Positions 2,692-45,245 of a stretch of DNA of 64,000 nucleotides are shown in pieces. Position 1 is the stretch's first letter, and each line of letters starts with the position of its first letter. This stretch comes from Halorubrum trapanicum (GTDB lineage: Archaea > Halobacteriota > Halobacteria > Halobacteriales > Haloferacaceae). The notes below the pieces were generated by a model. That model had not been told where the DNA came from, ran no database searches, and was given only the letters and a program-made list of their open reading frames with translations. The position numbers were made by a program, and so were the translations under genes. The stretch is from contig NZ_JAGGKE010000001.1 of assembly GCF_017873555.1 (NCBI RefSeq), forward strand, positions 124,001 to 188,000, in the 5' to 3' direction.

Positions 2692-3893
2692 CTTCCTGTT
2701 TCCACGACGCGCTTTGCAGGAACAACCTCAGTTCCCGTAGGGAGCGCAGTCTTCACAGGCGTTGATTCGGAGTCTCCCACTCCTACATCTTGTAGACCGC
2801 GAGAAAGGATGTTCCACGCCGCGTTCGCGTCCCTGTCCGCCTCGAACCCGCAGGCGGGACAGGAATGTTCACGGACCCACAGCGGCTTCTCTGTCGAGAC
2901 GCCGCACGCCGCACACTCTTTCGTCGTCCCTCTCGGGTTGACCGCCACGAAGTGCGTTCCTTCACGGTCGCACTTGTATTCGAGCAACGAGAGAAACGTT
3001 CGCCAGGCGGCAGACGCCGTGTTTCGGCTGTTCGACGGACTTTCCATCATCCCCTTCACGTTCAGGTCTTCGACCGCCACGAGGTCGTACTCCCGAGCGT
3101 AGTACGCCGAGAGCTTGTGGAGAAAGTCGCGGCGTTTCCGTCGGAGGTCGGCGTGACACTCCGCGACCCGCCGCCGTTGCTTCTCCCAATTGTTCGACCC
3201 GTGTTCCTTCCGTGAGAGGGACCCCTGTTCGCGTTCCAGACGGTCCCGTTCGTCCGAGAGGTCGAGCGACCCGACGGCGGTCCCGTCGGTGTCGTGGGCG
3301 TACTTGAGAATTCCCACGTCAATGCCGACGCACCGCTCGGGATTCTCAGGCGGTTCGGGCGGTTCACGGTCTATTTCGACTCCGAACGTGGCGAACCACT
3401 CGCCCGTCGGTTCCTTCTTGATCGTGACCTGTTTGAGCGTCGCGTCGTCAGGGATGGCGCGGTGGAGCCGAATCGGGATGTCCGCGAGTTTCGAGAGGGA
3501 CAGCACAGCCTGACCGCCCTTCTTGTCGAGCTTGAAGCCAGACTGGCTGTACGTGAAACTGCGGAACTCCCGTGGCGGCTTCCACTTGAGTTGACCGACG
3601 CCGTAGCCGTTCTCCTTGAGCGCGGAGAGTCCTTTGAGGTTGTCAAACAGGCGTTCCACGACGGTTTGGAGCACCTTCGAGTACACGTCGGAGAGGCCAT
3701 CCCACCACTGCTTGAGGTCGGGGAGTTCCGACCGAAGCGTGGTCATGGACGGCAGTTCGCCGTGTTCGTCTTGGTACTCGTTGAGGCGGTAGAGCGTGTG
3801 GTTGTAGAGTTGCCGACAAATATCGCGGTGGCGGTCCAACTCCTTGCGGTGGGCGTCGGACGGCTTGAGGCGGTACTTGTAGGCGTAGTACAT
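2649..3893 (-). CDS. tnpB: TnpB, RNA-guided nuclease of the IS605-type element
   Basis: A 414-residue TnpB if the ATG at 3893 is used (MYYAYKYRLKPSDAHRK); longer versions would run back into tnpA. The RuvC-like catalytic acids are visible: Asp in VGIDVGILKYA, Glu in VAVEDLNVKGM and Asp in ADRDANAAWN. The zinc finger reads CAACG followed by CPACGFEADRD. The helix-turn-helix-like N-terminus (RLKPSDAHRKELDRHRDICR) is also typical. The tnpA stop and tnpB start overlap as TGATG, which indicates translational coupling. No frameshift or missing active-site residue is seen. Confidence 0.93.
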   Translation of the reverse strand: MYYAYKYRLKPSDAHRKELDRHRDICRQLYNHTLYRLNEYQDEHGELPSMTTLRSELPDLKQWWDGLSDVYSKVLQTVVERLFDNLKGLSALKENGYGVGQLKWKPPREFRSFTYSQSGFKLDKKGGQAVLSLSKLADIPIRLHRAIPDDATLKQVTIKKEPTGEWFATFGVEIDREPPEPPENPERCVGIDVGILKYAHDTDGTAVGSLDLSDERDRLEREQGSLSRKEHGSNNWEKQRRRVAECHADLRRKRRDFLHKLSAYYAREYDLVAVEDLNVKGMMESPSNSRNTASAAWRTFLSLLEYKCDREGTHFVAVNPRGTTKECAACGVSTEKPLWVREHSCPACGFEADRDANAAWNILSRGLQDVGVGDSESTPVKTALPTGTEVVPAKRVVETGSPTLKERTASAVSE

Positions 3894-4300
3894 CAGCTCT
3901 CCCGCTGGTCTTCGACATACTGTTTCAACACATCCAGCGACACCTGCCCCGTCGAGATAAGACAGTACGAGTCGTTCCAGAACGAGTCGCCCCACAGTTC
4001 GGTCTTCAGTTCATCCTCGTACTCGTTTCGGATACGGCGAGCAGTCGCCCCCTTTACCGTGTTGATGAACTTCACGAGGTCCGTGGTTGGTTTCGCTCGG
4101 AACAGGATGTGAACGTGGTCGTCCTCTCCGTCGAGGTTCGTCAGTTCGACGCCGTAGTTGTCCGTGAACCCGCTGATGACCCCGCGAATGAATTGGGTTC
4201 GCTCCTCGGTTAGCACCCCACGACGATACTTCGTGGTGAGTATCAGGTGGTAGTGTAGGGAGTACGTTGAATGCGCTCCCGAATCGAGGTCGTATTTCAT
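3893..4300 (-). CDS. tnpA: TnpA, Y1 (HUH) transposase of the IS200/IS605 family
   Basis: A 135-residue single-strand DNA transposase. The HUH metal site reads DHVHILFRAKPT and the catalytic tyrosine is in SYCLISTGQVSLDVLKQY. The start MKYDLDSGAHSTYSLHYH gives the usual family length; an upstream extension to 4411 would run into the left-end hairpin and is unlikely. It cuts and joins the element ends next to the hairpins at 4406-4450 and 2642-2691. Confidence 0.93.
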   Translation of the reverse strand: MKYDLDSGAHSTYSLHYHLILTTKYRRGVLTEERTQFIRGVISGFTDNYGVELTNLDGEDDHVHILFRAKPTTDLVKFINTVKGATARRIRNEYEDELKTELWGDSFWNDSYCLISTGQVSLDVLKQYVEDQRES

Positions 4301-43302: not shown

Positions 43303-43785
43303 ATGAGCTACCCGGTCACGTACTACTGTCCCCACTGCGGGACGCTCGTCGCGCTCGAACGCGAGGGGTACCTCGCGGACAAGTCGGTGACGCCGTACCC
43401 GCTGGAGGGGTGGACCTACGTCGCGCCGACGGAGCCGTTCGACGCGGATGAAGACGGTGAGAGCGATGACAATACCGTTGAGGCGGATGGCGTCCGGTTC
43501 GTCTGCGGCGAGAGCGACGGGGTCGACTGGGACCCGCACGACGGCGTGCGGGGGACCGACGTGGGCGGCGACGAGCCGTATCGGGAGCCTGACGGCGAGG
43601 GCGTCGGCTGCGGCGAGCCGTTTTATTTGTCTTTCGTCCGCTACGAGGACGGCCGGGAGATCGACCCGGAAGCGGAGTCGGAGCCGGTCGAGATCAATCC
43701 CGATCCGCGGCCGAGCGGTCCCCGCGGGCCGGGCGGTCCCGGCGAGACCGGCGGCCCGGGCGACTCCGACGGCGGCTTCTGGTGA
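43303..43785 (+). CDS. Zinc-ribbon protein with Pro/Gly-rich tail
   Basis: A 160-residue acidic protein. The N-terminus has a CPHCG knuckle (YYCPHCGTLVALER) and further single cysteines (FVCGES and GVGCGEPFYLSF) that could complete a metal site. The last 30 residues are a Pro/Gly-rich tail ending GGPGDSDGGFW. TTTATAAA at about 43276-43283 is about 23 bases from the ATG, fitting a leaderless transcript. Function unknown. Confidence 0.7.
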   Translation: MSYPVTYYCPHCGTLVALEREGYLADKSVTPYPLEGWTYVAPTEPFDADEDGESDDNTVEADGVRFVCGESDGVDWDPHDGVRGTDVGGDEPYREPDGEGVGCGEPFYLSFVRYEDGREIDPEAESEPVEINPDPRPSGPRGPGGPGETGGPGDSDGGFW

Positions 43786-44300
43786 CTACTCGGTGAAAGC
43801 TGCGGCCAACTGCTTATAAATGGTTGCTAGCGCAGAGAGTGTCTCAAAAACCCCAGCCGCTCGCTTATAAATAGTTGATAACAGATCGACGGCGAACACC
43901 GCCAAAGCCCCAGCCGTGAGGGCGGCGCACGCTCGCTGTCGTTCGAGACGCCTTCGGCGTCTCGTGATGACGAAACGGCTTCGCCGTTTCGAACCACGCT
44001 CCTCACTCGGTCGCTCACTCCGCTCGCTCCCTCGTTGTGGTGCTTGCGTCGCCTGCGCCGCCCTCGCGGCTGCCCCTTTGAGTCCCGTCCCGCACAGCAC
44101 CTCACCCTCCCCAGCCTCGTCGGCGGTCCTCCGCTTCGCTCCGGACCGCCGACTCCCTCGCGCGTGCTCCTCGCGGCCGCCTTCGGCGGCCACTCGGAGG
44201 CGCGCGCCACCGTATCGTTCATTTATAAGTGTCGTCTCCGTGGACTCCCGAGACTTCGCGAGTCGAACAGCCAAACCCCTTAAACGGGGAGCGAGTAGCT
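43786..44300. other. Structured intergenic block with hairpins and repeated TATA motifs
   Basis: About 520 bases without a convincing gene. Two direct copies of CTTATAAAT followed by RGTTG occur at about 43813 and 43864, each followed by CCCCAGCCG (43849 and 43908 regions). An opposing ACTTATAAATG on the minus strand lies near 44220. In between are hairpins at 43944-43952/43956-43964 and 43971-43979/43983-43991 (9-bp stems, TTC loops), 44121-44129/44143-44151 (9-bp arms) and 44175-44181/44185-44191. It may be a dispersed repeat or an RNA gene read from the minus strand. Minus-strand ORFs here look spurious. Confidence 0.55.
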
Positions 44301-44306
44301 CCGTCC

Positions 44307-45245
44307 ATGGAAAGCATCAATCGGACCGCGATCGAGCTGGTCGACGAGGCGCTCGATTTCGCCGGCGAACTGGACGTCGTCGGCTACGAGCTGGACAACG
44401 GCGCCACCGTCGTCGACTTCGGGGTCGACGCGGCCGGCGGGGTCGAGGCGGGACTGCTGCTCGCGGAGATCCAGACCGCCGGGCTGGCGAACCTGCGGAC
44501 CCGAATGGGAACGCTCGCGGGCGCGCCGCGCCAGTACGTCGAGCTGTCGACGGATCACCCCGCGGTCGCGCTGCTCTGCTCGCAGAAGGCCGGGTGGGAG
44601 GTCACGACCGAGGGCGGCTTCGAGGGCCTCGGCTCCGGGCCGGCTCGCGCGCTCGTCGGCCGCGAGGCGGAGTTCGAGCGCGTCGGCTACTACGACTCCT
44701 CGGAGTTCGCCACGCTCGCGATAGAGTCGACGACGCTGCCCGACGAGGCGGTCGCCGAGCAGGTCGCGGAGATGGCCGAAGTCGACGCCGAGGGCGTGTT
44801 CCTCCCGACGTTCGCCACCGGCTCGACCGCCGGCTCCGTCACCACCGCGGCCCGCGCCGCGGAGCTCGCCGTCTTCCGCCTGCTGGAGGTCGGCTACGAG
44901 CCGACGGACGTGCTCCACGCCTCCGGCTCGGCGCCGATCGCGCCCCCGACCCGCGACGAGACCGAAGCGATGGGCCGGACCAACGACGCGCTCGCGTACG
45001 GCGGCGAGGTCCACCTTCAGGTCGCCCGCGACGACGACCGCTTCGACGAGATCGTCTCGACCGCCAGCGAGGAGTACGGGACCCCCTTCGTCGAGGTGTT
45101 CGAGGACGCCGACTGGGACTTCTACGAGGTGCCGGAGAGCGTGTTCGCCCCGGCGCAGGTCACGGTCGACGTCGTCGACGGTCCCGTCTACACGGTCGGC
45201 GAGACCGACGAGGAACTGCTCGCGGAGTCGTTCGGCTACCGCTGA
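44307..45245 (+). CDS. mch: Methenyltetrahydromethanopterin cyclohydrolase
   Basis: A 312-residue enzyme that hydrolyses the methenyl form of a methanopterin-type C1 carrier to the formyl form. Family blocks are VDFGVDAAGGVEAGL, LSTDHPAVALLCSQKAGWEV, SGPARALVGREAEF, VFLPTFATGSTAGSVTTAAR and SGSAPIAPPTRDETEAMGRT. Haloarchaea are not methanogens; the gene is thought to serve C1 metabolism there. The ATG at 44307 (MESINRTAIELVDEAL) is chosen; an extension to 44229 enters the hairpin block. Confidence 0.93.
   Translation: MESINRTAIELVDEALDFAGELDVVGYELDNGATVVDFGVDAAGGVEAGLLLAEIQTAGLANLRTRMGTLAGAPRQYVELSTDHPAVALLCSQKAGWEVTTEGGFEGLGSGPARALVGREAEFERVGYYDSSEFATLAIESTTLPDEAVAEQVAEMAEVDAEGVFLPTFATGSTAGSVTTAARAAELAVFRLLEVGYEPTDVLHASGSAPIAPPTRDETEAMGRTNDALAYGGEVHLQVARDDDRFDEIVSTASEEYGTPFVEVFEDADWDFYEVPESVFAPAQVTVDVVDGPVYTVGETDEELLAESFGYR

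Follow-up and report, generated by a model that had tools for sequence, protein, structure and literature searches.

A large structured repeat dispersed between genes in Halorubrum and other haloarchaea

The gap between two plus-strand genes of Halorubrum trapanicum (43303-43785 and 44306-45245 of the window, the 64,000-nt stretch of DNA analysed here) is filled by a block, 43786-44300, that carries one member of a dispersed family of structured repeats. The element is real and widespread in haloarchaea, and was not previously described in the open literature searched (haloarchaeal repeats, MITEs, REPs, small RNAs). Family copies make up about 1% of a Halorubrum genome, and nearly half of the genomes sampled from the order have the family. 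Its minus strand folds, and from the strand-specific covariation described below one would expect a folded single strand to be recognised by some partner. The explanation preferred here, with a chance only a little short of even, is that of an old, non-autonomous, dispersed haloarchaeal repeat whose conserved minus-strand fold would be recognised in trans as DNA.

The copy in the window

A codon-usage gene caller (a simple codon model, also used for the placement counts below) calls no gene in the block; a protein-coding reading was rejected on this ground, in agreement with the sequence-only reading, which had seen no credible ORF. The copy itself spans 43904-44213 on the minus strand, with its 5' end at 44213, as judged from covariation and a covariance-model match (model R1, 44213-44070, 137.5 bits), and two leader units starting at 43812 accompany it. 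The first of these tandem units of about 51-57 bp (TTATAAAT ... AAACCCCAGCCG, 43812-43862, plus strand, direct repeats D2/D4) is also tandem at other copies. In the second (43863-43903, plus strand), TTATAAAT lies 39 bp before AAAGCCCC, a spacing that is fixed in the family, 85 of 236 copies having TTATAA at this distance upstream. The two direct TATA-containing units described from sequence are thus present, as 18-mers TTATAAAT at 43812 and 43863 and as AAA(A/G)CCCCAGCCG at 43847 and 43904, and so is the opposing TATA element, on the minus strand at 44220-44229, just beyond the right end; across the family, 76 of 214 copies have this box 12-15 nt beyond the element. The TATA pattern has three matches in the window, with 0.00 expected.

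Four strong hairpins had been proposed for the block. They are indeed strong, and five were counted: P1, two nested within it, P2 and P3. The P1 domain (43903-44080, minus strand, inverted repeat I1) has an outer CAAAG/CTTTG helix, a GGGG internal loop, an 18-bp variable stem and a core of 2-bp steps parted by conserved GA/GA mismatches, an architecture found in other families as well. Within it, at 43939-43996, is a nested 58-bp double-hairpin insert that resembles a small mobile repeat (TCGTTCGA-hairpin-TCGTGATGACGA-hairpin-TCGAACCA) and is missing at that position from uninterrupted copies. A nearly invariant G-rich linker follows (44081-44119, minus strand, GAGGCTGGGGAGG ... GGGACTCAAAGGGG), in which TGGGGAGG is found in 48 of 48 copies. 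The P2 hairpin (44120-44152, minus strand), identified with model R1, has its minus-strand loop within GCGAAGC, and P3 (44155-44212, minus strand, GGTGGCGCGCGCC ... GCACGCGCGAGGG) is a double-stem hairpin with two-sided changes in 9 of the 18 pairs of its helix 1. The minus strand of the block has a folding energy of -184.9 kcal/mol (z -7.65), and the plus strand a folding z of -7.0. T-rich stretches had also been described after GGCTGGGG on the minus strand; the sequence there is CTTTGG..., not clearly T-rich.

Architecture, copy number and distribution

The family layout is about 250 bases, three hairpin domains with nearly invariant linkers between them. Read on the plus strand, one to several leader units of 51-57 bp (TTATAAATAGTTGA...GAACACCNCCAAAGCCCCAGCCG) are followed by P1, a long stem interrupted by an internal CCCC loop and irregular in its core; a linker from GCCCCTTTGAGTCCC to CCTCCCCAGCCTCG; the P2 hairpin; the P3 double stem, with the end CACGCGCCACCGC; and, in about one third of copies, a TTATAA box 12-15 bp further on. 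Four G-tracts are conserved on the minus strand (TGGGGAGG in 48/48 copies, GGGYGGG, GGGGC and GGGGC), from which a G-quadruplex is conceivable. A subtype (family f17; L263, L264, L266, L271-L273) keeps P3, P2 and the GGGGAGG linker, with GCAGTAGCTAGC replacing the GGGACT...P1 part.

BLAST with the block found 74 pieces in its own genome. The 15-base anchor GCCCCTTTGAGTCCC, with up to two mismatches allowed, has 129 genome matches (68 on the plus strand, 61 on the minus), compared to six for a reversed control, and R1, a model of P3, P2 and the linker, has 141. The genome-wide copy count is about 130-141; 93 copies with two conserved anchors were extracted. R1 also matched all 22 of the same-genus relatives searched, with 16 to more than 77 matches each, scoring being capped at 77, and in a 30-mer search all 80 named records among the matches listed were from Halorubrum. 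With a second, broader model, R2, the family was found in 57 of 117 genomes, representing 23 of the 48 genera of the order, and in none of 60 genomes of that order; E-values of these custom models are rough. Weak matches in other families share the linkers, the P1 outer helix (GAAAG/CUUUC), the GGGG loop and the core ladder. Plasmids of Halobaculum, Halorussus, Haladaptatus, Natrinema and others also have matches, unannotated in nearly all cases; the two named examples inspected both lie between convergent genes. The suggestion from sequence that this could be a dispersed repeat or family of mobile palindromes is supported, with some 130 copies here, occurrence in all Halorubrum searched and in 23/48 genera, and differences in presence and absence between species.

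A fold conserved on the minus strand

In a minus-strand alignment of 48 copies, 98.4% of the cells paired in the consensus structure are able to pair, compared to 87.0% after shuffling. Two-sided compensatory changes affect 29 of 56 pairs (18.3 in shuffled alignments) and 296 cells (80.7), although covariation between copies is partly cassette reuse, so that independent compensatory events are fewer than the cell counts. This covariation was reached by none of 500 shuffles, and every slid version of the structure was far worse; compensatory base changes beyond controls, as looked for in a structured noncoding RNA, are present. Covariance modelling of homologous blocks thus bears out the conservation of the stems, which are nearly perfectly paired despite differing sequence, with 58 distinct 5' arms in 83 own-genome copies.

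That it is the minus strand which folds is shown by the wobble bias and the conserved GA/GA steps. Among P1 stems of 195 copies, read on the plus strand, A-C oppositions outnumber G-T ones by 53 to 13, and the asymmetry is significant separately in the own genome (p 0.0003) and in other species (p 0.0009). This excess on the plus strand means that the minus strand tolerates wobble pairs; over the structure as a whole, the latter strand has 70 G-T (GU) oppositions and 16 A-C. The P1 core is a ladder in which GA stands opposite GA, invariantly or nearly so, at minus-strand columns 213/214-274/275, 230/231-258/259 and 237/238-254/255. GA/GA mismatches form stable sheared pairs on the minus strand; on the plus strand they are C/U mismatches.

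Persistence, exchange and rearrangement of copies

Compared to the closest relative (about 93% identical), the element is retained at eight of nine resolvable syntenic sites in 400 kb. At site L009 (copy L009-1574), a VapBC-like toxin-antitoxin pair is found instead in relative G139 (C1, offset 288178-288931 of the 400-kb stretch). Shared sites differ in their hairpins: at L032 P1 is identical and P2 and P3 differ, at L038 P2 is identical and P1 differs, and at L033 the P1 core is inverted. The window's own site has the element in six further species, and the stems keep pairing across several of them; in H. sodomense (L215) the element is reduced to fused ends, and elsewhere it is absent or another gene is found instead. 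Further sites are polymorphic for presence or absence between species. Flanks of empty sites are too diverged to define a target duplication, and one empty site retains a leader unit. On this showing the family is old: its copies are for the most part inherited at their sites, some are gained or lost, and cassettes are often exchanged. The linkers are identical at one orthologous site in several species, which suggests constraint in place, beyond past mobility alone.

In about 3% of copies (L033, L059-1786, L082+1800, L270), and also in another family, the P1 core lies reversed between the arms of its own stem; this is recurrent DNA inversion at inverted repeats. On a larger scale, at L039 (G000:C1:405094-409694) two inverted copies surround a gene-sized segment whose orientation is opposite in the close relative G139, as expected for recombination between flanking copies.

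The double-hairpin insert of 58-75 bp (TCGTTCGA-hairpin-TCGTGATGACGA-hairpin-TCGAACCA) is found inside hairpins of unrelated elements (window 43939-43996, L295, L268): many copies have it in P1, and the tnpB element L295 has it in the palindrome at its right end. It draws its hairpin sequences from a small recurring set, and may be a small-mobile-repeat-like family that targets palindromes. A second nested type (AGCGAGGGACCGAAGGTCCCTCTGGCAGCCGGCGCGTAGCGCCGGCGAC) occurs between P2 and P3 at one fixed position, in both orientations (L036+3318, L037, L059, L084, L086 and others). Many contigs of G000 end in copies with poly-G/C junk (C2, C3, C5, C9, C10, C20; L002, L013, L056), an assembly artefact due to the repeats. 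Family members are hot spots of recombination (swapped hairpins, inversions, one gene turned round between copies), targets for nested palindromes, and assembly breakpoints.

Genomic placement

Of 92 copies, 34 lie between convergent genes, 48 between tandem and 10 between divergent ones, where 17, 50 and 25 would be expected from background intergenic gaps (p 5e-6). Copies between tandem genes face either way at random (26 and 22), and a cis-acting element of the upstream mRNA was rejected for that reason. A fixed partner gene was rejected as well, since the flanks of eight loci from other genera are ordinary and mutually unrelated. TTATAA is found at both ends at fixed spacing, and no terminal repeat other than these boxes was seen on the element. 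The boxes are independent of the direction of the neighbouring gene, and so belong to the element or its target.

Possible functions

The preferred explanation begins with the folded minus strand, which, as single-stranded (or extruded) DNA, would be recognised by a trans-acting factor, much as happens in attC-, REPIN- or PATE-like systems. That factor may once have spread the element, while the hairpins would now be exchanged and homogenised by recombination between copies. Any stem sequence would be allowed if paired; the purine-rich linkers and the GA/GA ladder would be contacted directly, and hence fixed. Copies would survive mainly between the 3' ends of genes, the places least harmful to promoters, and might also insulate or terminate.

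The loops bear on whether DNA or RNA is the folded molecule. Triloops close 172 of the 232 different hairpins, and 89 of these loops read GNA on either the one strand or the other, with only a mild strand bias (56 minus, 33 plus); among 37 tetraloops there is one GNRA and no UUCG. A DNA minihairpin of sequence GCGAAGC is unusually stable (PMC4686876), and P2 carries this sequence. The triloops, the near-absence of RNA tetraloops and GCGAAGC in P2 favour folding at the DNA level, and the evidence from loop types leans towards it. The TATA boxes were also considered. In most copies that have one, the minus-strand TATA lies 12-15 nt before the element, and in about half of copies it is absent. 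Transcripts from haloviral promoters are reported to start 26 nt downstream of TATA (PMC8707807), and with this spacing a start would fall inside the first stem, so in most copies the box is too close for a normal promoter of an intact minus-strand RNA. For these two reasons, loop types and TATA position, the single-stranded DNA or mobile reading is placed slightly ahead of an RNA one. Against it, no trans enzyme was identified, and an irregular 250-nt fold whose linkers are kept invariant order-wide is no less to be expected of a functional RNA.

The sequence-only reading had proposed, as one of two possibilities, an abundant structured RNA transcribed from a minus-strand unit. The strand has held up, since it is the minus strand that folds, as has conservation of the stems; the spacing from TATA to start does not suit such a unit, and the loops are not RNA-like. 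A multicopy family of structured noncoding RNA genes read off the minus strand, with P3, P2, the G-rich linkers and a P1 rod, functional at each site, is nevertheless plausible, if on balance doubtful. Covariation and wobble bias single out the strand it requires, TTATAA boxes are present at the ends, and pairing is kept at an orthologous site in several species. The irregular helix, with its GA/GA and A-A mismatches, and the invariant linkers are conserved in other families; the irregular GA ladder, the linkers and the order-wide conservation fit a functional RNA equally well. It has to contend with triloops where GNRA is almost lacking and UUCG is absent, with a minus-strand TATA that about half of the copies lack and that, in most of those having it, leaves too little room before the 5' stem, and with P1 cores that are inverted in some copies. 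Both readings predict a functional minus strand.

Placement raises the question of a bidirectional terminator, insulator or mRNA 3'-end stabiliser, like BIME/REP at gene ends. The hairpins are very stable on both strands, copies are enriched twofold between convergent genes and depleted between divergent ones, and the two named plasmid copies are between convergent genes, but selection against landings in promoters would give the same distribution. Such a role is unlikely, as half of the copies are between tandem genes in random orientation, yet one strand only is adapted to fold, and a terminator does not need invariant 15-nt linkers. That the family is a functionless by-product, with palindromes perfected by template switching and homogenised by gene conversion, would account for near-perfect stems with short loops and for cassette replacement at orthologous sites, but is very improbable: correction of palindromes would do away with the GA/GA and A-A mismatches and offers no means of preserving linkers, both of which persist across families, and a strand-specific wobble bias is not predicted.

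Comparison with known systems

Several known types were rejected. Rfam 15 gives one tRNA only in the window, and its best match in the block (E 0.14) is far below threshold. For a viral repeat, no match was found in 50,697 phage records. The intergenic repeats of halovirus HF2 are units of about 57 bp with a TATA motif (PMC8707807); they resemble the family in length and TATA, but are viral promoters with other conserved motifs, not hairpin elements. An IS605 end or omega-RNA was rejected, there being no convincing model match at tnpB or Y1 loci. IS200/IS605 omega-RNAs (sotRNAs) are likewise structured, multicopy, haloarchaeal and related to mobile elements, but the family is not next to tnpB and is without an Rfam match. 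The window contains an ordinary IS605-type element with tnpA (Y1) and tnpB, at about 2800-4270 on the minus strand, which G139 lacks at the equivalent position.

Among described elements, the closest are the PATEs and small mobile repeats (SMR-A) of Haloquadratum walsbyi (PMC3119063). Compared by description, the family is like them in being transposase-free, palindrome-rich, intergenic and present in many copies. PATEs have near-terminal palindromes in common with IS605-type elements; in contrast, the fold described here is missing from 13 tnpB and four Y1-transposase loci (best R1 E 0.56), and such shared palindromic ends were not found. SMR-A elements are small palindromic repeats that insert inside the palindromes of larger elements, as does the 58-bp double hairpin, and it is this nested insert only, with its TCGTTCGA...TCGAACCA arms, that has the SMR-A features (short, terminal inverted repeats, insertion in palindromes), a likeness by description.

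As a mosaic of interchangeable hairpins, with around 100 copies in intergenic gaps, the family also resembles BIME/REP/REPIN elements, but is much larger, and its linkers are fixed and its fold conserved. A stand-alone RAYT-like Y1 transposase was not found in the genome; the four Y1 transposases present are about 1 kb away from tnpB genes, the arrangement of ordinary IS605 elements, with no family element nearby.

Integron attC sites have hypervariable stem sequences, a conserved fold and conserved unpaired bases, and act through one strand only. The family would work in a like manner, with stem sequences that vary and a fold and unpaired bases that are kept on one strand, although membership is not claimed; no integrase or gene cassettes were seen, and the fold is a three-domain one of 250 nt. 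More broadly, and with somewhat less than an even chance, the family may represent an order-wide class of large (about 250 nt) structured nucleic acid with a GA/GA rod, four G-tracts and variable stems, in up to more than 100 intergenic copies per genome, that would be either a functional RNA or a substrate for recombination as single-stranded DNA that belongs to none of the known transposon or integron systems.
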